From Hydrogenophaga sp. SL48 (GTDB taxonomy: Bacteria; Pseudomonadota; Gammaproteobacteria; Burkholderiales; Burkholderiaceae_C), in NCBI RefSeq assembly GCF_021729865.1, contig NZ_CP063400.1, positions 930,001 to 994,000 of the forward strand: a stretch of 64,000 nt of DNA. Direction: 5' to 3'. How positions within the stretch are numbered: position 1 is the stretch's first letter; every line of letters begins with the position of its first letter. The translations under genes were made by a program, and so were the position numbers. Below are positions 16,989-29,261 of this stretch, piece by piece. The notes under the pieces are model-generated. The model was not told the origin of the DNA, did not search any database, and saw nothing but the letters and a program-made list of their open reading frames with translations.

Positions 16989-17561
16989 TCAGCGGTCCAG
17001 ATCGGCCATCAGCACCCGGGCCTGCGGCCACGGGCCATGGCCCGAGGCGGGGTTGAGGTGACCCGCCTGTCCCAGGTCGACCACGCGGCTGCCCCAGTCC
17101 CGGGCCAGCTCCCGCACACGGTCCGGCCGGCCCAGCGGGTCGTTCTCGCTGAGTGCGACCCGGCTGGGGAATGGCAGCGGGGCGCGCGGCACCGGGAACC
17201 AGCCCGCGGCACGCAGCGCGGCCGTGTCCGGGTAGCCCTCGGGCATCGGGGTGTCGAAGTCCGGTGGCGTGGCCAGGAGGGCGCCCCTCACACGGGCCGC
17301 CCGCTGGGTCGTTGCGGCCCAGTGCGCCACGGTGATGCAGCCGCCGCTGTGCGCGACCAGCAGCACCGTGCCGTCGACCGAGGCCACCGCCGCTTCCAGC
17401 GCGTTCACCCGGGCCTGGCGGTCCAGGTTCTCACGCCCCATCGGCGCCACCGTGACGCAGCCGGGCAGCTCGGCCGCCAGCAGGGTCTGCCAGTGCTGCG
17501 CGACATGGTCGCGCAGGCCGGGCACGATGACGATGGTGGACCGGGCGTTGGCCTGCACCAT
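16989..17561 (-). CDS. Alpha/beta hydrolase of the RBBP9/YdeN type
   Basis: 190 aa from ATG 17561. The start is fixed by a TGATG overlap with the stop of the upstream gene, plus AGGA 8 bp upstream. IVIVPGLRDHVAQHWQTLL opens the fold; the nucleophile is S72 (VAHSGGC); the acid is the Asp in ENDPLGR and the base the His in GQAGHLN. RBBP9-type serine hydrolases have poorly defined substrates. It is the last gene of the six-gene operon running leftward from 21987, so it may hydrolyse an ester or lactone intermediate of that pathway (inference). Confidence 0.85.
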   Translation of the reverse strand: MVQANARSTIVIVPGLRDHVAQHWQTLLAAELPGCVTVAPMGRENLDRQARVNALEAAVASVDGTVLLVAHSGGCITVAHWAATTQRAARVRGALLATPPDFDTPMPEGYPDTAALRAAGWFPVPRAPLPFPSRVALSENDPLGRPDRVRELARDWGSRVVDLGQAGHLNPASGHGPWPQARVLMADLDR

Positions 17562-17983
17562 CACAGGGTTCCTGGGCATGGCCTTGCCGATGCCTTGGCC
17601 TGGTGGCGGGCCACTTCCTCCAGCAGCATGGGCGCACCCAGGCTGCTGGCATGCAGGCCGAGCACGCTCACGCCCTGGAGCACCGCCGCAATCTCCTCCT
17701 GGGTGGCTCCCAGCTCGAGCGCGCGGCGAATGTGGCGCCGTGTGCCCGGGCCGTACATGTGCGTGCAGGAGGCGTCCACCGCAATGGAAATGAACTCCCA
17801 GACCTTGGGTTCGATCAGGGCCTTGCGCATGGGGTGCATGGCCATGTCGAGGAATTTTTCGGTCCACAGCGGGTCGAGTTCGGCGAAGCTGTCCCACTCC
17901 GGGTTCCAGTAGCCACTGGCGCGCAGTTCGTCGCTGACCGGTGTGGCGCAGGAGGCCGGGGCGGCGGAGGTGGGGTGGCTCAT
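17561..17983 (-). CDS. Carboxymuconolactone decarboxylase-like (AhpD-fold) protein
   Basis: 140 aa from ATG 17983. The all-helical CMD fold is indicated by WEFISIAVDASCTHMYGPGTRRHIRRALELGATQEE..., a stretch that keeps the His (RRHI) but has one Cys where peroxidatic family members carry CxxC. It therefore resembles the decarboxylase or an uncharacterised subgroup rather than AhpD. It begins 8 bp after the Bug stop and overlaps the hydrolase start, so all three are tightly coupled in the AraC-controlled operon. Exact reaction unknown. Confidence 0.8.
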   Translation of the reverse strand: MSHPTSAAPASCATPVSDELRASGYWNPEWDSFAELDPLWTEKFLDMAMHPMRKALIEPKVWEFISIAVDASCTHMYGPGTRRHIRRALELGATQEEIAAVLQGVSVLGLHASSLGAPMLLEEVARHQAKASARPCPGTL

Positions 17984-17990
17984 GGGGGTC

Positions 17991-18989
17991 TCAAGCGGGC
18001 TTGTAGTTGATCGAACGCAGCATCCGGCCGGTGCTTTCGTTGTCTTGCCGGTGCGACTTCTCCAGCTCGGGAACGGTTTGAGCCGGGTTGCCAACCTCCA
18101 TGCCCAGGGCGCCGAACTGGCTCTTCACCGAGGGCGTCGTGATCGCCTTGATCAGCTCCTGGCGGAACCTGTCGCGGATGTCCTGTGGAACGTCGGGCGT
18201 GGACCAGATCGTGGTGCCCATGGTCTGGCTCAGCTCGGGGAAACCGGCTTCCGCCAACGTGGGCACGTCGGGCAGGTGGGGCGAACGCCTGGCCGAGGTG
18301 ACGGCCAGCGCGCGCACCTTGCCACTCTTGATCAGGGGCAACGAGGTGCCCATGCCGTCGAACATGAACTGCACCTGGCCGCCCATGAGATCCTGCAAGG
18401 CGGGCGGGGACCCCTTGTAACCCACGTGCTCCATGTCCAGCCCCGCGACCTTGCTGAACTGCATGCCCTTGAGGTGCGACAGCGTTCCCGGGCTGTAGGA
18501 CGCGTAGGAGGTCTTGCCCGGGTGCGCTTTCACGTAGGCCACCATCTCGCCGAGGTGGGTGACCGGCAGGGAAGGGTCGGCCACCAGCACCAGCGCGACG
18601 GAGGCCACCTCGGCGACCGGGGTCAGATCTTTGAAGGGGTCGAAGCGGAACTTGTAGCTGTGCGGGTTTTCCGTCACCAGGGAGTTGGGCGACAGCACGA
18701 AGGTGTGGCCGTCGCGGGGCGCACCCAGCATGCTCTCGACCGCCAGGATGCCGCCCGCCCCGGGCTTGTTGTCGACCAGGACCGTCTGGTTCGTGCTTTT
18801 GCGAACGCTCTCCGCCACGGTGCGCGCGATCATGTCGGACGCGCCGCCGGCCGGCGCGGGGACGACGATGCGGATCGGCCGGCTGGGCCACGCGCCTTGG
18901 GCCGCCACCTGGGCGCAGGGCAGGACCAGCAGCGAGGCCAGAAGCAGGGTCCGGCGAGGGAAAGATGAGGAAGTGGGTTTGAAGATCAT
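17991..18989 (-). CDS. Bug/TctC-type receptor in the AraC-controlled operon
   Basis: 332 aa from ATG 18989. Signal peptide with LLLASLLVLPCAQVAAQ, then WPSRPIRIVVPAPAGGASDM and the DNKPGAGGILAVESM loop of the Bug family. It sits between the beta-keto-acid cleavage enzyme (upstream, 59 bp) and the CMD-like gene (8 bp). Because it is embedded among catabolic genes it probably captures the pathway substrate. The Bug protein at 23264, driven by the matching promoter, shares the PAPAGG and P-F-D-P-L/F-K-D features and is likely a paralogue. Confidence 0.87.
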   Translation of the reverse strand: MIFKPTSSSFPRRTLLLASLLVLPCAQVAAQGAWPSRPIRIVVPAPAGGASDMIARTVAESVRKSTNQTVLVDNKPGAGGILAVESMLGAPRDGHTFVLSPNSLVTENPHSYKFRFDPFKDLTPVAEVASVALVLVADPSLPVTHLGEMVAYVKAHPGKTSYASYSPGTLSHLKGMQFSKVAGLDMEHVGYKGSPPALQDLMGGQVQFMFDGMGTSLPLIKSGKVRALAVTSARRSPHLPDVPTLAEAGFPELSQTMGTTIWSTPDVPQDIRDRFRQELIKAITTPSVKSQFGALGMEVGNPAQTVPELEKSHRQDNESTGRMLRSINYKPA

Positions 18990-19048
18990 GAGGGTCTGCT
19001 GAGGAGGTCTACAAAGGGTTTTGATCGGTCGATGCCGGTGGCACCGGC

Positions 19049-20107
19049 TCAGGCCACCTTGCGCAGGTAACCCTGCTGGCCGCCGTTGCGGTTGGGCGCG
19101 AAACCGTTGGCGGCCAGCGTCTCCTCCACGCTGTCGTAGAACACGCCGATCTTGCAGATCGCGCGCGCCTGCTGCGCCGTGGCGATGGGGCGGCCGAATT
19201 CGCGCGAGATGCGCACCAGCTGCTCGATCTGCGCCACGGTGCCGATCTTGGCGCTGCGGTCCTGGTTCCAGAGGTTGTCCTCCGTGCCTGTGCGCACGTG
19301 CAGGCCCATGGCAATGCCCATCATGTTGACGGGCAGCACGTTGAGCACCGAGCTTTCCACCGTCAGCATGGCGCCGTCGGGCACGGCGCGCACGAAGTTG
19401 GCCAGGCTGTAGATGTTGGGCACGTCCATGCCGCCGCCGATGGCCACCCAGTTCATCACCAGCGGACCCTTGTAGATGCCCCGACGCATCAGGCGCTCCA
19501 CCGACTCGAAGCTGTTGATGTTGTAGCACTGGAAGGCGCTCTGGATGCCGGCGGCCGAGAGGCGCCGGATGTGCTCCTCGGCCCAGCCAGGCTGGGCCGG
19601 CACCGTCATCTCCTTGTAGGCGTTGAAGACCACCGGGTCTTCCATCGACGAGCCCTGGATGTCGCGGAAGTCGAACTGCTCCAGGATGTTCATCTGCGAG
19701 GTGTTGATGGTCACCGTCACCTGGTCGGGCTTGGGGTCCAGCTCGGCCAGCATGTGGCGCGTGTCGTCGCTGAGCCATTTGGCGGCGGCGCCGTCGGTCT
19801 CGGGTGCGAAGCTGATCGAGCCGCCCACCTGGATGATCATGTCGGGCACGCGGGCGCGCACGCCGGCGATCAGCTCGTTGAACTTGGACAGGCGCTTGCT
19901 GCCTTTGCCATCGAGTTCACGCACGTGCAGGTGCAGCACGGTGGCGCCCGCGTTGTAGCAATCCACCGCTTTCTGGATCTGCTCCTCCATCGTCACGGCG
20001 ATCTCGCCCGGGAAGTCGGAGGGCAGCCACGAGGGTGCGTAGGGGGCGGCGGTGATGACCAGGGGTTGCTGGTTTTCGGGGAACAGGTGGCCGTCAAGGA
20101 AGTTCAT
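19049..20107 (-). CDS. Beta-keto acid cleavage enzyme (BKACE, DUF849)
   Basis: 352 aa TIM-barrel protein of the BKACE family, which condenses a beta-keto acid with acetyl-CoA and cleaves it to acetoacetate plus a new acyl-CoA, using Zn. Zn-ligand motif H59-L-H61 (ATVLHLHVREL) is present; GGGMDVPN and the C-terminal VEETLAANG are also family-like. It is longer than the roughly 280-310 aa of well-known BKACEs and has HVREL in place of HVRDP, suggesting a distinct specificity subgroup. It follows the dioxygenase by 31 bp in the same operon. Substrate not predictable from sequence. Confidence 0.85.
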   Translation of the reverse strand: MNFLDGHLFPENQQPLVITAAPYAPSWLPSDFPGEIAVTMEEQIQKAVDCYNAGATVLHLHVRELDGKGSKRLSKFNELIAGVRARVPDMIIQVGGSISFAPETDGAAAKWLSDDTRHMLAELDPKPDQVTVTINTSQMNILEQFDFRDIQGSSMEDPVVFNAYKEMTVPAQPGWAEEHIRRLSAAGIQSAFQCYNINSFESVERLMRRGIYKGPLVMNWVAIGGGMDVPNIYSLANFVRAVPDGAMLTVESSVLNVLPVNMMGIAMGLHVRTGTEDNLWNQDRSAKIGTVAQIEQLVRISREFGRPIATAQQARAICKIGVFYDSVEETLAANGFAPNRNGGQQGYLRKVA

Positions 20108-20138
20108 GGGGGGCTCCGCAAAAAAAGTTGAAGAAGGT

Positions 20139-20987
20139 TCAGAACGTGGGCGTGCCGACGATGCCGGCGCGCTCCATCTTTCGGTGGCAGGGCGGGTAGT
20201 CCATCACCGCGTAGTGCTGGGTGGTGCGGTTGTCCCAGATGGCGACGCTGTTGGGCTGCCAGCGCCAGCGCACCTGGTATTCGGGGATCGCGGCCTGGCT
20301 GATCAGGTACTGCAGCAGGCCCGAGGTGCCCTGCGTGAAGTCCTGCCCATAGCGCACGTTCTCCGGTGTGTGGTAGTTCGTGAAGTGGGTGGTGAAGCCG
20401 TTGACGAACAGCACCTTCTCGCCGGTCTCGGGGTGGGTGCGCACGACCGGGTGTTCGGCGTCGGGGAACTGGGCCTTGAGCGCCAGGCGGCGTTCGATCG
20501 GCATGGCCGCGCCGAAGCTGCATTCGATGCTGTGGCGTGCGCGCAGGCCGGCAATCTGCTGCTTGACCTGTTCGGGCAGGCGCTCGTAGGCCAGCGCCAT
20601 GTTGGCCCACATCGTGTCGCCGCCCACCGGCGGGCACTCCACGCAGCGCAACACGCAGCCCATGGCGGGCGCCTCGCGCCAGGTGCCGTCGCTGTGCCAG
20701 GAGTTTTCGTAGCGGTCGTTGGGCGCGTCGGGCGTCTTGTAGATGCGCACCAGGCCGGGGTGTTCCGGGTCGCTGCCGGCCACCGGGTGGTCTTCCAGCT
20801 CGCCGAAGCGGCGCGCGAAGGCCACGTGCTCGGCGCGCGAGATGTCCTGGTCGCGCAGGAACAGCACCTTGTGCCTGAGCAGCGCGGCCTTGATCTCTTC
20901 GTACAGCGCGTCGTCGCGCGCGGCGTCGGCCAGGCTCACGCCGCTGATCTGTGCGCCGATGGCGCAGGTGAGGGGTTCGATCTTCAT
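20139..20987 (-). CDS. TauD/TfdA-family Fe(II)/2-oxoglutarate dioxygenase
   Basis: 282 aa, the usual length of TauD. Iron ligands H98 and D100 (NSWHSDGTW) and H258 (WDNRTTQHYAVMDY), plus the 2-oxoglutarate-binding arginine in HRKMER, are all present. The enzyme should hydroxylate its substrate next to a leaving group, releasing sulfite if it is a sulfonate (taurine type) or an alcohol if it is an aryloxyacid (TfdA type). It is the second gene of the AraC-controlled operon. A UPF0324 exporter lies under the matching promoter, which favours a sulfonate (inference). Confidence 0.87.
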   Translation of the reverse strand: MKIEPLTCAIGAQISGVSLADAARDDALYEEIKAALLRHKVLFLRDQDISRAEHVAFARRFGELEDHPVAGSDPEHPGLVRIYKTPDAPNDRYENSWHSDGTWREAPAMGCVLRCVECPPVGGDTMWANMALAYERLPEQVKQQIAGLRARHSIECSFGAAMPIERRLALKAQFPDAEHPVVRTHPETGEKVLFVNGFTTHFTNYHTPENVRYGQDFTQGTSGLLQYLISQAAIPEYQVRWRWQPNSVAIWDNRTTQHYAVMDYPPCHRKMERAGIVGTPTF

Positions 20988-21006
20988 GGTGGTCTCCTCG
21001 GGCGGT

Positions 21007-21987
21007 TCAGATCACGAACACCGACGAGCCGGTGGTCTGGCGCGATTCGAGGTCGCGGTGCGCCTGTTGCGCGTCGGCGAGTGCGTAGCGCTGGTTCACT
21101 TCGATGCGGATGCGGCCGGCGGCCACGTGGCCGAACACCTCGGCCGCCAGCTCGGCCTTCTCGGCCGGGTCGGCGATGTAGTCGGCGAGCGCCGGGCGCG
21201 TCAGGTAGAGCGAGCCCTTCATGGCCAGCAGGTTGGGGTTGAAGCCGTCGATGGGGCCGCTGGCCGTGCCCACGCAGACCATCAGCCCGCGGCGCTTGAG
21301 CGAATCGAGCGAGGCCATGAAGGTGCTCTTGCCCACGCTGTCGAACACCACGTCCACGCCCTGGCCGCCGGTGAGTTCCTTGACCCGCGCGGCCACGTCC
21401 TCGTGGCTGTAGTTGATGGTGTGGGTGCAGCCGTGCGCTTTGGCGACTTCGGCCTTGGCGTCGGTGGACACGGTGCCGATCACGGTGATGCCCAGCAGCT
21501 GCGCCCATTGCGACACGATCAAACCCACGCCGCCCGCCGCCGCATGCAGCAGCAGCGTGTCGCCGGCCTTGAACGGGTGGATGCGCCGCATCAGGTAGGC
21601 CGAGGTCAGGCCGCGCATGGTCATGGCGGCGGCGGTCTCGAAGCCGATGCCATCCGGCAGCTGGATCAGCGGTGCGGCCGGAATCAGTCGCTCGGTGCTG
21701 TAGGCGCCCAGGGTGTTGAGGAAGCCGGTGTAGGTGACACGGTCGCCGACCGCCACGTTGTTGACATCGGGGCCGATGGCCTCGACCACGCCTGCGGCTT
21801 CCACGCCCATGCCGGCGGGCAGGGGCATGGGGTAGGTGCCGTTGCGGAAATAGGTGTCGGCGTAGTTCAGGCCGACGGCGGCGTGGCGCAGCCGGACCTG
21901 GCCCGGGCCGGGCTCGCCCACCTCGACCTGTTCGAGCTCCAGCACCTCGGGGCCGCCGGTGCGGTGCATGCGGATGGCAGTGGCCAT
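21007..21987 (-). CDS. NADPH:quinone oxidoreductase, MDR superfamily
   Basis: 326 aa zinc-less medium-chain reductase. The QOR signature is visible: GLNYADTYFRNGTYP, GMGVEAAGVV, then the NADPH site HAAAGGVGLIVSQWA and GSVSTDAKAE-like region. It reduces quinones or alpha,beta-unsaturated carbonyls. First gene of the six-gene leftward operon, 20 bp ahead of the dioxygenase, with GGAGACAACC before its ATG. Tandem AraC-type boxes lie 88 bp upstream of the start. Confidence 0.88.
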   Translation of the reverse strand: MATAIRMHRTGGPEVLELEQVEVGEPGPGQVRLRHAAVGLNYADTYFRNGTYPMPLPAGMGVEAAGVVEAIGPDVNNVAVGDRVTYTGFLNTLGAYSTERLIPAAPLIQLPDGIGFETAAAMTMRGLTSAYLMRRIHPFKAGDTLLLHAAAGGVGLIVSQWAQLLGITVIGTVSTDAKAEVAKAHGCTHTINYSHEDVAARVKELTGGQGVDVVFDSVGKSTFMASLDSLKRRGLMVCVGTASGPIDGFNPNLLAMKGSLYLTRPALADYIADPAEKAELAAEVFGHVAAGRIRIEVNQRYALADAQQAHRDLESRQTTGSSVFVI

Positions 21988-22041
21988 GGGGGTTGTCTCC
22001 TTCGTGTGTTCGGGGCGCCGGGTGTCCGGGCCATGGAACGC

Positions 22042-22105
22042 ATCGTAGGAGTCACCGCCATCCGCTGCTTGTCAAATTGGGACAATGGCTTGCGAATGTG
22101 GGACA
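22042..22105 (-). promoter_or_regulatory. AraC-type tandem operator and promoter of the qor operon
   Basis: Read on the minus strand: TGTCCCACA (22105-22097), 12 bp, TGTCCCAAT (22084-22076), 28 bp, then the -10-like TACGAT (22047-22042). The boxes repeat with a 21-bp period. The same boxes and the same 28-bp spacer to a -10-like TAGTAT occur in front of the Bug gene at 23264, so the two regions align over 64 bp with no gap. The likely binder is the AraC protein encoded between them. Confidence 0.75.
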
Positions 22106-22106
22106 G

Positions 22107-23147
22107 TCAGGGTTGACCCTGACGCACCGCCGCTTTCGCCTTTTCCTGCGTCCGCCAGGCCGTCACGCTGCAGCCGAAGGTGTGGCGGAACCAGTGCGAA
22201 AACGCGGCCGGTGCTGCGAACCCCAGCAGCTGCGCCACTTCGGCCAGCGGCAGGTCGCTGTCCCGCACCTGGCGCAGCACCAGCTCGGAGCGCACCGACT
22301 GCAGCAGCGTGGCGAAGCTCTCGCCTTCCTTCGCGAGATGGCGGTGGATGGTGCGGCGGTCCACGCCCAGGTGCTGCGCCACCTGCTGCGAGGTGCAGCG
22401 CCCGCCGGGCAGCAGCGCGGCGATCAGCTGGCGCACGGTGGCCTTGGTGCTCTGGTGCTGGCCCGAGAGCGCGCGGTCCAGGTACTCGCGGGCGAAACGC
22501 GCCATCTCCGGGTTGTGGCCCGCCATCGGTGCCTGCAGGTCGGCCGTGTGGCAGACGATGCCGTTGAACTCGCTGTTGAAGTCCACGGTGGTGCCGAAGA
22601 AGGCGCGGTGCGCCTTGGCGTCGCGCGGTGGCCGGTGGTTGAAACACACGCGCACCGCCTTCCACTGCAGGCCCAGCAGCTCGCGCAGGATGCGGAACAT
22701 CACGCCCACCGCCAGCTCCATCGACTGGCGCGTGCTGGCCGTCTGTTCGACCAGGATCTCTTCGCGGATCACCAGCCGGTCGCCGTGTTCCTCGATGCGC
22801 GTGAGCAGCGAGGCGTTGAGCAGGCGCAGGTAGCGGCACAGGGTGTCCAGCGCGGCGCGCGCCGTGGGCTCTTCCTTGAGCACCAGGCTGATCGGCCCGA
22901 GGTTGCTGAGCTGGCGCCGCGCGGCCAGCCGCAGCCCAAAATCTTCGACGCCGCTGGCCTGCGCGCTGTGCTCCATCAGCGCGCTCACGGCCACCGTGCT
23001 CAGCGGGGTTTCGGGGTTCTCCAGGCTGCGGGGAGACAGGCCGGCACGGCGCAACATGGCGTGGGCATCGAGGCCGACGGACTGGGCCAGGTCCAGGTAG
23101 CCGTTGAGGCTGGCGCTGCGCACCACGGGCACGTAGGGGTAATCCAT
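22107..23147 (-). CDS. AraC-family regulator
   Basis: 346 aa from ATG 23147. The N-terminal part matches the arabinose-binding-like domain of OruR/ArgR-type AraC proteins (LDAHAMLRRAGLSPRSLENPETPLS, FGLRLAARRQLSNLGPISLVL). The C-terminal double HTH has TSQQVAQHLGVDRRTIHRHLAKEG and LAEVAQLLGFAAPAAFSHWFRHTFG. It sits between its two predicted target transcription units. Tandem TGTCCCAAT boxes flank the gene on both sides; those at 23151-23180 begin 3 bp from its own start codon, implying autorepression (inference). Confidence 0.9.
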   Translation of the reverse strand: MDYPYVPVVRSASLNGYLDLAQSVGLDAHAMLRRAGLSPRSLENPETPLSTVAVSALMEHSAQASGVEDFGLRLAARRQLSNLGPISLVLKEEPTARAALDTLCRYLRLLNASLLTRIEEHGDRLVIREEILVEQTASTRQSMELAVGVMFRILRELLGLQWKAVRVCFNHRPPRDAKAHRAFFGTTVDFNSEFNGIVCHTADLQAPMAGHNPEMARFAREYLDRALSGQHQSTKATVRQLIAALLPGGRCTSQQVAQHLGVDRRTIHRHLAKEGESFATLLQSVRSELVLRQVRDSDLPLAEVAQLLGFAAPAAFSHWFRHTFGCSVTAWRTQEKAKAAVRQGQP

Positions 23148-23150
23148 GAA

Positions 23151-23214
23151 TGTCCCAATATCGAAAATCGCTGTCCCAATTAAGCAAGCAGAGACGGAGG
23201 GCGAATCCTAGTAT
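23151..23214 (+). promoter_or_regulatory. AraC-type tandem operator and promoter of the Bug-YeiH unit
   Basis: TGTCCCAAT at 23151-23159 and 23172-23180 (21-bp period), then 28 bp, then -10-like TAGTAT (23209-23214). The proximal box is 83 bp from the Bug ATG at 23264. Geometry and box sequence duplicate those ahead of the quinone oxidoreductase operon (22042-22105). Because the distal box touches the araC ribosome-site region, binding would also repress araC. Confidence 0.75.
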
Positions 23215-23263
23215 TTGCCCCAGGGTGCTAGCCATGGCCCGAGAACCACACTGGAGACAACAC

Positions 23264-24244
23264 ATGACGCGCTTTTCCTTCTCTCCCCTTCGCCGCACCG
23301 TGTGCGCCGCCGCCCTGGCGCTGGCGCTGCCCGCCGCCCACGCATGGACCGACAAGCCGGTGCGCATGGTGGTGCCTGCGCCCGCCGGCGGCACCATGGA
23401 CGTGGTGGCCCGCATCGTGGCCGAGCAGCTGGCGGCCGACATCGGGCAGCCGGTGGTGGTGGAGAACAAGCCTGGGGCGGGCGGCGCGATCGCGGTGCAG
23501 GCCATGCTGGCGGCGCCGGCCGATGGCAACACCATCATGATGACGGCGAGCAACATCCTGACCGAGATTCCGCATGTCATGAAGACGGCCTTCGACCCGT
23601 TGAAAGACGTGAAGCCCGTGACCGCCATCGCCCGCGCCAGCATGGTGCTGATCGGCGCGCCCAATGTGCCGGCCAAGGACCTCAAGGGTGTGATCGCCTG
23701 GGTCAAGGCCCACCCGGGCACGGTCAGCTTCGCCTCCTACAGCGCGGGCACCAGCTCGCACTACGCCGGCATGATCCTCAACCAGAAGGCGGGGCTGGAC
23801 ATGCAGCACGTGCCCTTCGCCGGCTCGCCGCCCGCGCTGGTGCAGGTCATGGGTGGCCAGATCCCGCTGATGTTCGACGGCATGGCGACGGCCAGGAAGA
23901 TGATCGAAGGGGGCAAGGTCCAGGCCTACGGCGTGGCGTCGAAGAAGCGCTCGCCGCACCTGCCCAACCTGCCCACGCTGGCCGAGCAGGGCTACCCCGA
24001 TCTCGACTTCAGCAACTGGGTCGGCATCATCGTGGCCACCAGCGTGCCGTCGGCCGTGGTGCAGAAGATCAACGCCGCGGTGGACAAGACCGCCGCCGCT
24101 CCCAAGGTCAGGGACCGCCTGCAGGGCGCGGGCTTCGACGCGGGCGGCGACGAGACCGCCGAGCAGATGGCGCAGTCGCTGCGCGCCGACTTCGAGCGCA
24201 ACGCGGCCATCGTCAAGAGCTTCGACATCAAGCTCAACCCGTGA
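23264..24244 (+). CDS. Bug/TctC-type receptor coupled to a YeiH exporter
   Basis: 326 aa from ATG 23264 (GGAGACAACAC upstream). Signal peptide with CAAALALALPAAHA, then WTDKPVRMVVPAPAGGTMDV and the ENKPGAGGAIAVQAM loop. The stop overlaps the exporter's GTG start (GTGA), so the two are translationally coupled. Its promoter matches that of the qor operon, which has its own Bug receptor. Two receptors in one regulon suggest a substrate pair, or redundancy from duplication. Confidence 0.9.
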   Translation: MTRFSFSPLRRTVCAAALALALPAAHAWTDKPVRMVVPAPAGGTMDVVARIVAEQLAADIGQPVVVENKPGAGGAIAVQAMLAAPADGNTIMMTASNILTEIPHVMKTAFDPLKDVKPVTAIARASMVLIGAPNVPAKDLKGVIAWVKAHPGTVSFASYSAGTSSHYAGMILNQKAGLDMQHVPFAGSPPALVQVMGGQIPLMFDGMATARKMIEGGKVQAYGVASKKRSPHLPNLPTLAEQGYPDLDFSNWVGIIVATSVPSAVVQKINAAVDKTAAAPKVRDRLQGAGFDAGGDETAEQMAQSLRADFERNAAIVKSFDIKLNP

Positions 24245-25296
24245 GCACCGCCGTGCCATCGGCCATGACACCGGGGGGCGACGGGCTCAAGGCCCAGGCG
24301 GCGCACTGGCTGCCCGGCGTGATCCTCAGCGCCACCGTGGCCGTGGCCGCCATGGCGCTGGCCAGCCACTACGGCGCGCCGGTGATGCTGTTCGCGCTGC
24401 TGCTGGGCATGGCGCTCAACTTCCTCTCGGCCGAGGGCCGCAGCGCCCCCGGCATCGACTTCACCGCCCGGCAGGTGCTGCGCCTGGGCGTGGCGTTGCT
24501 GGGGCTGCGCATCACGACCACCCAGGTGATGGCGCTGGGCTGGGAGCCGGTGGCGATGGTGGTGCTGGCCGTGGCGCTGACCATTGGCGTGGGCATCGTG
24601 CTCGCGAAGCTGATGGGCTTCCAGATGTTCTTCGGCCTGCTCACCGGTGGCGCTGTCGCGATTTGCGGCGCATCGGCCGCGCTGGCGCTGTCGGCCGCGA
24701 TGCCGGCGCACCCGCTGAAGGAGCGCGCCACGCTGTTCACCGTGATCGGCGTGAGCACGCTCTCCACGCTGGCCATGATCCTGTACCCGCCGATCACGCA
24801 CGCGCTCGGCCTCTCGCCGCTGGACGCGGGCACCTTCATCGGCGGCACCATCCACGACGTGGCCCAGGTGGTGGGCGCGGGCTACAGCCTGTCGCACGAA
24901 GCGGGCGACGCGGCCACGCTGGTCAAGCTCTTGCGCGTGGCGATGCTGCTGCCGGTGATCGCGCTGGCGGCCTGGCTGGCGCGCCGGCACCAGCGGGCGC
25001 AGGGTGATGGTGACGCCGGTGGCCCGCGCCCGCCGCTGCTGCCCTGGTTCGCCGTGGCCTTCGCGGTGCTGATGCTGCTCAACAGCACGGGCTGGTTGCC
25101 GGCGGTGGTGGTGGAGGGCGGCCAGAGCGCTTCGCAGTTCTTCCTGGTCGCGTCCATGGCCGCCATCGGCATGAAAACCCACCTGCGCGACATCGTCACC
25201 GTGGGCTGGAAACCGGTGGCGCTGATGGTGCTGGAGACCGTGTTTCTCGCTGCGCTGTTCTACGGGCTGCTTCTACTGAAATCGCAGGTGGGATGA
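24241..25296 (+). CDS. UPF0324/YeiH-family membrane protein (putative sulfite/sulfate exporter, CuyZ-like)
   Basis: 351 aa from GTG 24241, which overlaps the receptor stop; an in-frame ATG at 24265 is the alternative. About ten membrane helices with the family stretches RLGVALLGLRITTTQV, GAVAICGASAALALSAAMP and FIGGTIHDVAQVVGAGYSLS. The COG2855 family includes CuyZ, proposed to export sulfite released during cysteate/sulfonate breakdown. Pairing in one regulon with a TauD-like dioxygenase fits export of sulfite (inference). Transport direction and substrate are not proven by sequence. Confidence 0.85.
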   Translation: MSTAVPSAMTPGGDGLKAQAAHWLPGVILSATVAVAAMALASHYGAPVMLFALLLGMALNFLSAEGRSAPGIDFTARQVLRLGVALLGLRITTTQVMALGWEPVAMVVLAVALTIGVGIVLAKLMGFQMFFGLLTGGAVAICGASAALALSAAMPAHPLKERATLFTVIGVSTLSTLAMILYPPITHALGLSPLDAGTFIGGTIHDVAQVVGAGYSLSHEAGDAATLVKLLRVAMLLPVIALAAWLARRHQRAQGDGDAGGPRPPLLPWFAVAFAVLMLLNSTGWLPAVVVEGGQSASQFFLVASMAAIGMKTHLRDIVTVGWKPVALMVLETVFLAALFYGLLLLKSQVG

Positions 25297-25417: not shown

Positions 25418-26017
25418 ATGAACGAACTGCAAATGGTGGAAGTGTTTGGCAGCGTGGGCCGCTTTCGAGCCCTGCGGGCCTTGTTTGCCGAGCCTGGCAG
25501 GGGCTTCGGGCAGCGTGAGCTGGCGGCTGAGGCGGACATTGATCCGGGCGGTGTGGCCAGGTTGCTCAAGCGCTGGGTGGCGGCTGGTCTGGTGACGCGA
25601 CGGCAGCAAGATGGCTTGCCTCGTTACTACGCTAGCACCGATCCAGCATTGAAGCCCTTGGTCACGCTCATGCTGCAGGACAGTGTGTTGGTCAGCACGC
25701 TGCGGGAGGCTCTGGCCACCGTGCCAGGGGTCGCTGTGGCCTTGGTTTTTGGTTCCGTGGCGCGGGGTGAAGCCGGTGCAGGCAGCGACGTGGATGTACT
25801 GGTGCTGGGCAATGCGTCCGAGCTGAAGGTGAACGCTGCCCTCAAGCCAGCAGGGCGAATCCTGGGCCGTGCGGTACACGCCACGGCCAGTACCATCAAC
25901 GCATTCATTGAACAGGTTCGCGGGGGAGAGAGCTTTGCACAGGACATCGTGCAGGGTCCGCGGATCGCCTTGCTGGGGAGCTTGGAAGATGCGGTCATTT
26001 CAAACATTGGCGGCTGA
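25418..26017 (+). CDS. Winged-helix-nucleotidyltransferase (MNT) protein, putative antitoxin
   Basis: 199 aa. Residues about 5-75 form a winged helix (FRALRALF...GFGQRELAAEADIDPGGVARLLKRWV...GLPRYY). Residues about 105-135 hold the minimal nucleotidyltransferase motif GSx10DxD: G112-S113 and D124-x-D126 (VFGSVARGEAG...SDVDVLVLG). MNT proteins paired with HEPN proteins can act as type VII antitoxins that AMPylate the toxin. The HEPN-like partner starts 45 bp downstream. Base composition is visibly less G+C-rich than in neighbouring genes, and repeats upstream suggest self-control; together these fit an acquired module (inference). Confidence 0.85.
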   Translation: MNELQMVEVFGSVGRFRALRALFAEPGRGFGQRELAAEADIDPGGVARLLKRWVAAGLVTRRQQDGLPRYYASTDPALKPLVTLMLQDSVLVSTLREALATVPGVAVALVFGSVARGEAGAGSDVDVLVLGNASELKVNAALKPAGRILGRAVHATASTINAFIEQVRGGESFAQDIVQGPRIALLGSLEDAVISNIGG

Positions 26018-26062
26018 GCCCGGTGCGCCGTTGAAGCGTCAGCCCGCCAATGGGCACGACGC

Positions 26063-26452
26063 GTGCATTGGCTCAAACAGGCCAGCGTGAAGCTGGAGGA
26101 CGCGAGGCAGACGGTGATTTCTGCCAGCACCCGAATGGACGCTGCGTGGGACGCCGTGCTGATGGCTTGCCTGGCTGTGGCGTGTGCCGAAGGTTGGCGA
26201 GCGACCAGCGACAAAGGTCATCACCAAGTGGTTCTGGAAGGCACTGCATCGTCCATTGGCCTGACTCAGGCGCGTATGGACGAGCTGGACACCTTGCGCG
26301 ACTGGCGCAACCGCAAGTACCGGGCAGGCTTCAACGTGGACCCTGAAGAACTTGACGAGGCCATCGCTTGGGTGTCCCCTTTTCTGGATGCGGTAGGGCG
26401 ATGGTTCAAAAGGGAAAAGGCGGCTCTGGTGAAACAGGGGCTGGCGCCATGA
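26063..26452 (+). CDS. HEPN-like partner of the nucleotidyltransferase, putative toxin or its remnant
   Basis: 129 aa if started at GTG 26063; no ATG is in frame after the upstream stop, and the 15 codons before 26063 also read like protein (SARQWARRV), so the true start is unclear or a frameshift has occurred. The four-helix HEPN pattern fits WLKQASVKLEDARQTVISA at the N-terminus and LRDWRNRKYRAGF near residues 79-90. The usual RNase motif R-x4-6-H is not intact: R82-N-R-K-Y86 has no histidine. It may be a non-nuclease HEPN or an inactivated toxin. Its stop overlaps a further ATG (26449). Confidence 0.6.
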   Translation: MHWLKQASVKLEDARQTVISASTRMDAAWDAVLMACLAVACAEGWRATSDKGHHQVVLEGTASSIGLTQARMDELDTLRDWRNRKYRAGFNVDPEELDEAIAWVSPFLDAVGRWFKREKAALVKQGLAP

Positions 26453-26749
26453 GCGGGGTCTCTGATGGGCGGTTGCATGGAACGGTCGCACAACCCGGTG
26501 ACGTGCTGTGGCACTGCATGCAGCTGCGCTTGTTGGCTCTGCTGGGCTGAGGACCCCGACCGCTGGTCCCCGAGTGATGGCTGATGTCGGCGGACGGCAA
26601 GCTGATCGAGGCGTATCTGGCTGAGTAGTGGGAAGTCCTGCCGACACGTGTGGCCAAGCCTAGCAGTGCAAGCCGGCCTCGCCCGACCTTTACACGCCAG
26701 ACACAAACCCTTCACCCCGGGTTGCATTCGACGGACCGAGAATGCGGCG
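26453..26749 (+). other. Gap of about 300 bp with degraded-looking sequence
   Basis: Between the HEPN-like gene and the DUF1800 gene. A 33-codon frame starts at ATG 26449, overlapping the HEPN-like stop, and ends at 26550; it resembles nothing I know. A 14-codon fragment at 26584-26628 (MSADGKLIEAYLAE) looks like the end of a broken gene. I see no promoter of note, no tRNA and no inverted repeat ends. Confidence 0.4.
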
Positions 26750-28117
26750 ATGAACGCTCCCGCGACAGCCCTGAACCGCTTTGGCCTCGGCGCCCGGCCC
26801 GACGAGCCACCACCGGACGACCCACCACGGTGGTTGTTGTCCCAGTTTGAAGAATACGAGCCGCTGCCGCCGGCCTGGCGGTCTGCCGAGCGCACACCGG
26901 CGCTCGTCGGTGCCTGGCTGGCGCAGCAGCGCGCGGTGCGCCTGGCGCCGGAAGGGCAACGCAGCGGCATCCGCGAAGCCTATTTGCGCCAGGGGCGGGA
27001 CGCGCATGTGATGGCGGTGGGTGCCCGGACCGACAGCGCACTGCAGACGGGCACACCGTTTGTCGAGCGGCTGGTGCACTTCTGGTCCAACCACTTCGCG
27101 GTGTCGGTGGACAAGCTGCTGGTGGTGGGGCTGGCGGGCGGGTTCGAGGCCGACGCCATCCGTCCGAACGTCTTGGGGCGCTTTGAAGACCTGCTGCTGG
27201 CCGCCGTGCGCCATCCGGCGATGCTGCTCTACCTGGACCAGGCCCAGTCGGTGGGCCCGGGCAGTGCCGCGGGCCAGCGCGCAGCGGCCCGGCAGCAGCG
27301 GGTTCGTGGCCTGAACGAAAACCTGGCGCGCGAAATTCTGGAGCTGCACACGCTCGGCGTGCGCAGCGGCTACACGCAGGCCGACGTGACGGAGTTCGCC
27401 CGCGCGCTCACCGGCTGGACACTGCCGGGCGACGAGCCTGGCGACGGCGCCGAAGCCACGTTCCGCTTCGCTCCCGCCCTGCACGAGCCGGGCCCACGCA
27501 CCGTGCTCGGCCGCCGTTACGCCGACGGCGGCGAGCAGCAGGCCCGCGCCATCCTCCACGACCTGGCCACCGCGCCCGCGACCGCCCGGCACATCGCCAC
27601 CAAGCTCGCGCGCCACTTCGTCGCGGACGACCCGCCGCCCGCGCTGGTGCAGCGGCTGGCCGACAGCTTCGTGCGCACCGGCGGCGACCTGACCAGCCTG
27701 TACCGGGCCTTGGTGGCTTCGCCGGAGGCCTGGGCGTCTGCGCAGGCCAAGTTCAAGTCGCCCTGGGAGTGGGGCGTGTCCAGCCTGCGCGCCATGGGCC
27801 GGCGGGAGCTGCCGCCCATGCAGGCCACCAATTTGATGACCCAGCTCGGCCAACCGGTGTGGCGGCCCGGGTCGCCCGCGGGTTACGCAGACCTGAGCGC
27901 CACCTGGGCGGCACCGGATGCGCTGATCCGCCGCGTGGAGGCCGCGCAGCGTTTCGCCCAGCAGGCGGGCGGCGCCCTCGATGCCCGGGCACTGGCGACA
28001 CGGGTGTTGCCGGGCGGCGCTCTCAGCGACGCCACGGCGGGCGCGATCGCCCGCGCCGACAGCGGGGGCACCGCCCTGGCGCTGCTGCTGGTGGCGCCCG
28101 AATTCCTGAGGAGGTAA
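26750..28117 (+). CDS. DUF1800-domain protein
   Basis: 455 aa from ATG 26750. Family stretches: ALNRFGLGARPDE, VERLVHFWSNHFAVSVDK, NENLAREILELHTLGV (with DVTEFARALTGWT), and KFKSPWEWGVSSLRA near the C-terminal third. No signal peptide is evident although many partners are exported. DUF1800 proteins are nearly always encoded next to DUF1501 proteins, as here (4 bp to the next ATG). Function unknown. Confidence 0.9.
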   Translation: MNAPATALNRFGLGARPDEPPPDDPPRWLLSQFEEYEPLPPAWRSAERTPALVGAWLAQQRAVRLAPEGQRSGIREAYLRQGRDAHVMAVGARTDSALQTGTPFVERLVHFWSNHFAVSVDKLLVVGLAGGFEADAIRPNVLGRFEDLLLAAVRHPAMLLYLDQAQSVGPGSAAGQRAAARQQRVRGLNENLAREILELHTLGVRSGYTQADVTEFARALTGWTLPGDEPGDGAEATFRFAPALHEPGPRTVLGRRYADGGEQQARAILHDLATAPATARHIATKLARHFVADDPPPALVQRLADSFVRTGGDLTSLYRALVASPEAWASAQAKFKSPWEWGVSSLRAMGRRELPPMQATNLMTQLGQPVWRPGSPAGYADLSATWAAPDALIRRVEAAQRFAQQAGGALDARALATRVLPGGALSDATAGAIARADSGGTALALLLVAPEFLRR

Positions 28118-28121
28118 GACG

Positions 28122-29261
28122 ATGGACCGACGCCGCTTCCTGGGCTCCGCCACATTGCTGGCGGCCCCCCGCATCCTGTTCGCGAAGGCCGCCACCGAGC
28201 GGCGCTTTGTCTTCATCATCCAGCGCGGCGCGGCCGACGGCCTGAACACGCTGATTCCCTACGCCGACCCGGCCTACGCGAGTGCGCGGGGCGCCCTGGC
28301 CATCGACCCGGCCAGCGCGCTGAAGCTGGACGGCAGCTTCGCGCTGCATCCCTCCCTGGGCCATCTGCGCACGCTGTATGCCGCCGGGCAGGCGACCCTG
28401 TTTCACGCCGTGGCCTCGCCGTACCGCGACCGGTCCCACTTCGACGGACAGAACGTCCTGGAAACCGGCGGCAGCGCGCCTTACCAGGTCAAGGACGGCT
28501 GGATGAACCGGCTGCTGGGCGTGTTGCCGCGCGAAGGCAAAGAGGCCATCGCGTTCTCGCCCGCCGTGCCGATGGCGTTTCGGGGCGCGGTTCCGGTGAC
28601 CTCCTACGCGCCCTCGGCGCTGCCGCAGGCCAACGAGGATCTGCTGATGCGCGTGGAACAGCTGTACGCCCGGGACGGCCAGCTGCACGCGCTGTGGTCG
28701 TCCGCGCTGGAGGCCCGCGGCATGGCGGGCGGCATGGGCGGTGGCGCCAACCGCCAGGACGCGGGCGCGCTGGGGCGCATGGCGGCCGGCTTTCTGGGGC
28801 GTGCGGATGGACCCCGCATCGCGATGATCGAGACCGGCGGCTGGGACACGCACAGCGGCCAGGCGGCGCGGCTGGCCGCGCAGCTCAGGAACCTGGACCA
28901 CATGCTGGCCGGCCTTCAGGAGGGACTGGGGCCGGTGTGGGACCAGACGGTGGTGCTCGTGGCCACCGAATTCGGGCGCACCGTGGCGGCCAACGGCACC
29001 GGTGGCACCGACCACGGCACGGGCGCGATGGCGATGCTGGTCGGGGGTGCCGTGGACGGAGGACGCACCGTGGCCGACTGGCCGGGTTTGTCGGCCGCCA
29101 ACCTGCTGGACGGTCGCGACCTGAAGCCCACCCTGGCGCTGGACGCGCTGATCACCGCCGCGTGTGCGGAGAGCTTTGCGCTGGAGCCGGAGCGGCTGTC
29201 GCCGGTGCTGTTTCCGCACGGCGGCAAGAGGCCGTTGGTGCCGCGTCTTCTGCGGTCATAG
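28122..29261 (+). CDS. DUF1501 protein, Tat-exported sulfatase-like
   Basis: 379 aa. A twin-arginine signal opens the protein (MDRRRFLGSATLLAAPRILFAKA), so it should be exported folded. Alkaline-phosphatase/sulfatase-like core motifs are seen: IIQRGAADGLNTLIPY, SHFDGQNVLETG, ETGGWDTHSGQ and ATEFGRTVAANG...GTDHGTG, the last holding probable metal-binding Asp/His. Paired with the DUF1800 gene just upstream; the pair functions together in many bacteria but the reaction is unknown. Confidence 0.9.
   Translation: MDRRRFLGSATLLAAPRILFAKAATERRFVFIIQRGAADGLNTLIPYADPAYASARGALAIDPASALKLDGSFALHPSLGHLRTLYAAGQATLFHAVASPYRDRSHFDGQNVLETGGSAPYQVKDGWMNRLLGVLPREGKEAIAFSPAVPMAFRGAVPVTSYAPSALPQANEDLLMRVEQLYARDGQLHALWSSALEARGMAGGMGGGANRQDAGALGRMAAGFLGRADGPRIAMIETGGWDTHSGQAARLAAQLRNLDHMLAGLQEGLGPVWDQTVVLVATEFGRTVAANGTGGTDHGTGAMAMLVGGAVDGGRTVADWPGLSAANLLDGRDLKPTLALDALITAACAESFALEPERLSPVLFPHGGKRPLVPRLLRS

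Follow-up and report, generated by a model that had tools for sequence, protein, structure and literature searches.

The window analysed in our study is a stretch of 64 000 nucleotides, corresponding to bases 930001–994000 of the single-contig, 5.43-Mb genome of Hydrogenophaga sp. SL48 (NZ_CP063400.1). Our subject is a cluster of nine genes at positions 16989–25296 of that window, which brings together a TauD-like dioxygenase, a long BKACE enzyme and a putative UPF0324 exporter in what is probably a pathway of organosulfonate catabolism. An earlier note on this DNA had named the gene families and the place of the cluster, and profile searches recovered all nine genes. The cluster is divided into two arms, with seven genes lying on one and two, a Bug receptor and the UPF0324 gene, on the other.

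The larger arm, on the reverse strand, carries the genes for an AraC-family regulator with Arabinose_bd and HTH_18 domains (22107–23147), an NADPH:quinone oxidoreductase-type MDR enzyme (21007–21987; NF008024, 369.7 bits against a cut-off of 348), a TauD-like Fe(II)/2-oxoglutarate dioxygenase, which sequence and residue comparison mark as a putative desulfonating enzyme (20139–20987), and the BKACE (19049–20107), which was correctly described as a long variant (352 aa). These are followed by Bug/TctC solute receptor A (17991–18989; PF03401, 190.5 bits), a CMD-fold protein of 140 aa (17561–17983; PF02627, 27.4 bits, cut-off 23) and an RBBP9-type serine hydrolase of 196 aa (16989–17579; PF06821, 149.5 bits), for which a role as an acyl-CoA or ester hydrolase is possible. 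The CMD-fold protein lacks a CxxC motif, as had been claimed, and this motif was absent from all 16 CMD gene calls compared, the window's own among them. On the forward strand, the smaller arm consists of Bug/TctC solute receptor B (23264–24244; PF03401, 202 bits) and the putative UPF0324 exporter (24241–25296; PF03601, 226.6 bits, cut-off 24.5). The receptor and exporter had been taken to be fused in translation, which was not borne out, as they are separate open reading frames that overlap by at most four bases, and do so if the UPF0324 gene starts at GTG. The closest database homologue of the UPF0324 protein (343 aa) would match an ATG start eight codons downstream, which appears as likely as the GTG, and the overlap is uncertain. 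Genome-wide, the UPF0324 gene is the sole PF03601 match, and the BKACE and dioxygenase genes are among two PF05853 and four PF02668 matches, respectively.

The same operator stands before both arms and consists of two TGTCCCA half-sites 21 bases apart (TGTCCCA-N14-TGTCCCA), located by pattern search at 22078–22105 on the reverse strand, upstream of the quinone reductase gene, and at 23151–23178 on the forward strand, upstream of the gene for Bug receptor B. Allowing at most one mismatch, the window holds two such sites against an expectation of 0.02, and the whole genome holds seven, compared with three for a reversed control pattern; the only mismatch-free copies in the genome are the two at this locus. 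That both promoters share this operator, of which the genome has no further mismatch-free copy, makes it very likely that the exporter and dioxygenase form one regulon under a single AraC-type regulator, which presumably binds the double half-site. The term regulon had been an assumption of the earlier note and is now supported. Exact operator copies were present in 16 of 298 loci fetched for comparison (numbered L, with genomes numbered G), some of which repeat the same place or the window genome, and L233, from the same genus, has an exact operator at each of its two promoters. At L242, L245, L246, L255 and L259, a large LuxR-type regulator gene precedes tauD and replaces araC (the LuxR domain was checked for L246).

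The gene neighbourhood was quantified starting from BKACE. Relatives at E≤1e-60 were found in 11 of 300 genomes of the order and in 17 of 398 genomes of the phylum, a set that overlaps the first, and the best 80 matches of a contig scan correspond to 77 distinct loci. A BKACE gene call was available for 107 loci, and the 80 that had at least 6 kb on both sides were scored for neighbours within 8 kb. The count excludes the 27 loci whose flank falls short of 6 kb on at least one side, L118 (no BKACE) and the duplicates L067 and L074, and Ensifer L124, along with L172 and L173, lies outside it. The 107 include ten plasmid loci chosen by hand, and three of these (L117, L119 and L155) are among the loci with UPF0324. 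Paralogous loci of one genome were counted separately, and the counts are of loci, not of events, in sampled genomes and without phylogenetic independence. On this basis, the 80 loci were accompanied by TauD (67), AraC (63), quinone reductase (62), MFS transporter (42), Bug receptor (37), hydrolase (33), acyl-CoA ligase (25), UPF0324 (18) and CMD (12) genes. TauD was present at 18/18 BKACE loci with UPF0324, compared to 49/62 without (Fisher p 0.034). A Novosphingobium plasmid has an annotated AraC-Qor-TauD-BKACE-hydrolase-MFS-UPF0324 set, and a Rhodococcus gordoniae plasmid has a similar set with CMD, acyl-CoA ligase and a distant UPF0324 (36 % identity) in the operon. Multiplied copies were also seen, with three long BKACE genes (75–88 % identity to the window's) within ~17 kb, accompanied by several AraC genes, at L016 and L017 of G294, and 13 relatives of the window TauD at E≤1e-60 in Cupriavidus numazuensis (G1073, L043).

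A second count began from the exporter, for which the window's UPF0324 protein was compared with 319 genomes of the family (E≤1e-90), yielding 34 matches in 30 genomes. Using TauD at >55 % or BKACE at >50 % identity within 9.5 kb as criteria, 28 of the 34 lie beside one or the other (TauD 26, BKACE 21); the window, L021 and L022 are among the neighbourhoods scored. The six exceptions comprise one match on a 4.7-kb contig, two in G950, where a TauD of 82 % identity lies ~12 kb from one of the UPF0324 genes, and three at just 50–53 % identity. In a control of 35 other UPF0324 loci, none of the 34 scored rows (26–59 % identity to the window's protein) was beside TauD or BKACE and four were beside xsc; the 35th, L296, was below the scoring cut-off and matched neither TauD nor BKACE at E≤1e-3. 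L263 (G111), with a UPF0324 of 51 % identity and its BKACE at a distance of ~14 kb, was counted neither among the 34 matches nor among the controls. Because the control proteins are less similar by design, the association with the dioxygenase is one of this UPF0324 branch and not of UPF0324 at large. The BKACE-based and UPF0324-based counts, the latter with its control, indicate that the gene set is far more than a group of chance neighbours. Furthermore, the exporter tracks the dioxygenase somewhat more closely than it tracks BKACE, which is the prediction for a dioxygenase that releases sulfite.

On a phylogenetic tree of 94 UPF0324 proteins, the label 'linked' required 8 changes compared to 31.7 in shuffles. 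A clade of 83 rows (support 99/99) contains 44 of the 47 linked proteins and all seven xsc-linked rows, with E. coli YeiH outside, and long branches, those of L119 and L155 among them, make some placements unsure. The window protein also scored below the cut-off of the YeiH subfamily model TIGR00698 (137.6 bits, cut-off 232.6). The UPF0324 gene of L033 groups with E. coli YeiH and may stand at its locus by chance, and that of L155 is on the opposite strand. Independent recruitment of distant UPF0324 proteins was considered and has been retained for Rhodococcus only. UPF0324 proteins of 50–57 % identity occur in four taurine gene neighbourhoods; in three the gene lies between xsc and pta, with one beside sulfite oxidase, and the fourth is a region of a Polaromonas plasmid that carries tauA. 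Excerpts of two publications describe TauZ as an exporter of sulfate after sulfite oxidation (PMC5320631) and name CuyZ as a sulfite exporter (PMC4334477), and we infer the name 'TauZ-type' for the xsc-linked UPF0324 exporter.

The dioxygenase itself was examined through 99 TauD gene calls from the fetched loci, from which calls of ≤230 aa were left out and in which the duplicates L016/L067 and L018/L074 were kept. The residues for Fe and 2-oxoglutarate (H99, D101, H255 and R266 in E. coli TauD numbering) were conserved in 99/99, as were R270 and F159, with H70 in 97 and F206 in 96; H70 and R270 are those that we take to hold the sulfonate. Y73 was found in none, being replaced by Ala (58), Val (32) or Leu (6), and D94 was conserved in 58, the window enzyme included. 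In TauD, Y73, D94 and N95 bind the amine, according to the parts of PMC3675115 consulted. With F159 and the sulfonate-side residues kept and Y73 lost, the pattern is that expected for a non-amino sulfonate, and a sulfate ester would also be compatible. The window enzyme fell short of the taurine dioxygenase model NF007104 (255.3 bits, cut-off 313).

The BKACE was well supported as a family member (PF05853, 193.9 bits, cut-off 24.8), and none of the substrate-named NCBIfam equivalogs was matched above its cut-off (best 121.5 bits, cut-off 382). Its predicted model (pLDDT 73.5, with 68/352 residues <50) shows the TIM-barrel fold and matches Kce (2y7f; Foldseek E 2.0e-19, TM by target 0.83) and the Paracoccus enzyme. 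H59, H61, R272 and E276 were conserved in 146/146 gene calls and D277 in 145/146, with the same duplicates kept, and these are presumably the catalytic residues and those that bind the metal, zinc, an assignment taken from Kce. The products of BKACE are acyl-CoA and acetoacetate, the latter needing activation afterwards (PMC6365646, in part). Acetoacetate-CoA ligase genes lie 4–6 kb from BKACE at L024, L121 and L155, and a 3-oxoacid or acetate CoA-transferase gene adjoins UPF0324 at L160 and L263, in the latter ~15 kb from BKACE; the acetoacetate-handling genes of these five loci suggest a real but thin backing for BKACE cleavage. Putative transferase genes of a similar kind are present at L066, L236 and L260.

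Two further ideas about the pathway were set aside. A phloroglucinol or triacetate pathway was prompted by bk2, a short BKACE partner next to the long BKACE, which meets NF053538 in both cases scanned; bk2 was near just 7/80 loci and is therefore not core. At L157 (5737–11998; Caballeronia grimmiae), a Rieske protein gene and prpB, prpC, acnD and prpF stand directly behind a Qor-TauD-BKACE-MFS-hydrolase set. Propionyl-CoA was considered as the product from these methylcitrate genes and rejected, as other BKACE loci gave single weaker matches (prpC-like at L092, acnD-like at L168). In addition, a CsiD-type glutarate hydroxylase gene was seen 2–9 kb from the long BKACE at L031, L078, L098 and L099, with an adjoining FMN-dehydrogenase gene at L031.

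Taken together, we consider it probable that the cluster encodes an AraC-controlled regulon for the catabolism of a non-amino organosulfonate, in which sulfite is released, UPF0324 serves export and BKACE cleaves a beta-keto acid. The substrate would be an organosulfonate without an amino group, with a carboxylate present or gained, and its anion would reach a permease by way of the two Bug receptors. Hydroxylation of the sulfonate-bearing carbon would fall to the TauD-like enzyme, and the product would collapse to a carbonyl and sulfite, and UPF0324 would export the sulfite, or sulfate derived from it. Were the sulfonate beta to the carboxylate, a beta-keto acid (R-CO-CH2-COO-) would arise directly, and this beta-sulfo carboxylate route is presumably the shortest chemistry, with no redox step between dioxygenase and BKACE. 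The long BKACE would then convert the beta-keto acid and acetyl-CoA to R-CO-CoA and acetoacetate. The acyl part would pass to the hydrolase or a CoA ligase, and acetoacetate to a CoA ligase or CoA transferase and then a thiolase, which some related loci carry. What was observed is the genes, the operator common to both arms, the conserved linkage and the residue pattern. All reactions and their order are proposals from sequence, as are the placing of the sulfonate on the beta carbon and any part played by the quinone reductase and the CMD protein.

Several observations weigh against this proposal. The replacement of N95 by Glu in 97/99 dioxygenases is unexplained. It is not clear where the quinone reductase would act in the pathway, and the roles of the CMD protein and hydrolase are not secure. 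UPF0324 was missing within 8 kb at 62/80 BKACE loci, and the plasmid sets of Tsukamurella, Streptomyces NBC_00147, Azoarcus and two Caballeronia likewise show none in their annotated stretches. At Ensifer L124, CMD and SDR genes accompany a 48 % BKACE, and neither TauD nor UPF0324 is annotated there; a sulfite oxidase relative (one query; 36 % identity) was found only near L060, a BKACE locus without TauD nearby. TauD was not nearby at 13/80 BKACE loci, or 12 after correction for L018, where TauD starts 7.5 kb from BKACE and runs past the end of the fetched sequence, so that its scored absence is an artefact. Eleven of the 13 were followed by a genome search, plasmid loci L153 and L156 being outside it, and nine of these genomes (including G255, of L018) carry TauD at 74–81 % identity, so the absence is often, not always, only local. 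G434 and G645, the other two genomes searched, lacked TauD at E≤1e-60, as did G357, which had too short a flank to be counted, and G824, whose UPF0324 locus L253 has BKACE. The earlier note had named clusters lacking both dioxygenase and exporter as what would speak against its pathway. Such clusters do occur, in the 13 (corrected, 12) loci above, and this part of its expectation is qualified by the TauD genes found elsewhere in most of the genomes searched. Its pathway is retained in the link between dioxygenase, taurine-type exporter and BKACE, which association and residues support, and is weakened by those same loci.

Among other explanations, a sulfur-free carboxylate, such as an aryloxy or alkanoic acid, might be hydroxylated or dealkylated by the dioxygenase, with UPF0324 moving an organic anion, perhaps with a Bug receptor. 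TauD/TfdA enzymes do include carboxylate oxidisers, Bug receptors bind carboxylates and the function of UPF0324 is only putative. In the window, UPF0324 directly adjoins a Bug gene on the same strand, as it does in 8 of the 30 exporter-based loci with a UPF0324 gene call, but an acyl-CoA ligase holds that position in 16/30 and 12/30 have no Bug in the fetched stretch; the related idea of UPF0324 as a Bug-dependent importer was weakened by the same counts. The Novosphingobium and Rhodococcus sets likewise list an MFS gene and no Bug, and the UPF0324 clade includes proteins of taurine operons. At TauD position 70, the window enzyme has His, whereas RdpA has Val, and SdpA and TfdA also have no His (one sequence each), a difference observed here and not a published definition of aryloxyalkanoate dioxygenases. 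We regard a sulfur-free substrate as unlikely on this evidence, if less so than the two explanations that follow.

Slightly more improbable is a type II alkyl sulfatase in place of a desulfonating dioxygenase, which would oxidise the carbon of a sulfate ester and release sulfate for export by UPF0324, with the rest of the pathway unchanged. The exchange of Y73 for Ala, Val or Leu in 96/99 much resembles the Val/Ile of AtsK and Rv3406, so that the hydrophobic residue expected at this position is present, and UPF0324 genes carry the annotation 'putative sulfate exporter'. Excerpts of PMC3675115 describe a sulfate/sulfonate site common to TauD and alkyl sulfatases, and a Tyr in alkyl sulfatases at the position of F159; the Phe159 of all 99 calls argues against such an enzyme. 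The window sequence is also nearer to TauD (3.3e-58) than to Rv3406 (~1e-44) or AtsK (~1e-42). Finally, the dioxygenase might supply assimilatory sulfite only, its neighbours serving separate ends. E. coli TauD operates in this way, supplying sulfite for assimilation, but sulfur would go to waste with an exporter controlled by the shared operator, and BKACE, the acetoacetate genes and AraC with Bug or MFS travel with the dioxygenase; sulfur scavenging thus appears very improbable.

If organosulfonate catabolism is indeed the function, the recurrence of such a dioxygenase-BKACE-exporter set among bacteria of soil and water would indicate a class of sulfonates whose degradation has been overlooked. 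It would also give the UPF0324 family a testable partner and name enzymes that can be assayed directly. Described aerobic routes of sulfonate breakdown concern, to our knowledge, chiefly a few C2, C3 and sugar sulfonates. No description of the gene set was found among the matches listed by full-text searches, judged by titles and the starts of abstracts and with subscription papers mostly outside their reach. More tentatively, and we consider this doubtful, the TauD-BKACE pair could be a general, so far unnamed cassette in which TauD would convert beta-sulfo carboxylates, R-CH(SO3-)-CH2-COO-, to beta-keto acids in one step and BKACE would cleave these to acyl-CoA and acetoacetate. The repeated copies per genome, such as the three BKACEs of G294 and the 13 TauD relatives of Cupriavidus, would then be R-group-specific versions, and the cassette would occur across Proteobacteria and Actinomycetota, its transporters being interchangeable and its exporters forming a clade of their own.

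Our study also recorded genes in the surroundings of these sets. A DUF1302-DUF1329-YCF48-MMPL module, complete or partial, lies near such TauD/UPF0324 genes at L118, L123, L241, L245, L249, L255, L262 and L263 and may hint at a hydrophobic substrate. A fusion of alpha/beta-hydrolase and Cupin_7 stands between TauD and the Bug receptor at L022 (5831–7276) and L236 (4799–6211), with relatives in L235 and L166. SulP-type anion transporter genes occur near such sets at L173 (1–1598; Caballeronia Sq4a), with a phosphate acetyltransferase gene behind, and at L118 (1–1419; Pseudomonas plasmid). In the window, the stretch directly behind the exporter (25418–26452, forward strand) holds two open reading frames, one of 199 aa and then one of 129 aa. 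The first has an HTH-like beginning and contains the motif GSxxxGxxxxxSDxD, which is nucleotidyltransferase-like, and by eye the two resemble an MNT/HEPN-type pair. Adjoining open reading frames at 26648–29261 (forward strand) resemble, again by eye, the common DUF1800/DUF1501 pair.

In comparison with known systems, the dioxygenase belongs to the same family as E. coli TauD and shares its Fe/2-oxoglutarate residues, F159, R270, H70 and F206. However, the window group lacks Y73, has Glu at N95 and scores below the NF007104 cut-off, and the window enzyme sits in a carbon-catabolic setting and not with tauABC. A close relative is PDB 5vn6 (535.9 bits), labelled 'taurine dioxygenase', which has Ala at position 73 as does the window enzyme; because of this residue the label may be wrong, and our reading would call such labels into question. 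The dissimilation of taurine through Xsc and Pta shares with this locus a UPF0324 exporter of the same large clade, located between xsc and pta, whereas the window's nine genes include neither xsc nor pta, and desulfonation would fall to a putative 2-oxoglutarate dioxygenase followed by BKACE. The deoxyribonate pathway of Pseudomonas simiae likewise has BKACE and MFS transporters in one putative operon, with acetoacetate activated and thiolysed, but its beta-keto acid is made by an SDR, and no TauD or exporter is named in the portions of that report consulted (PMC6365646). The DTDP operon of Advenella also serves organosulfur catabolism and likewise includes a protein of the CMD/AhpD fold and two TctC/Bug-type receptors, together with a family III CoA transferase, yet its sulfur leaves via Mdo and the desulfinase Acd and not via TauD, and the available excerpts name no BKACE (PMC5373536). 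As an organosulfur operon with an AhpD-fold protein and TctC receptors is thus on record, such company is not strange at the present locus.

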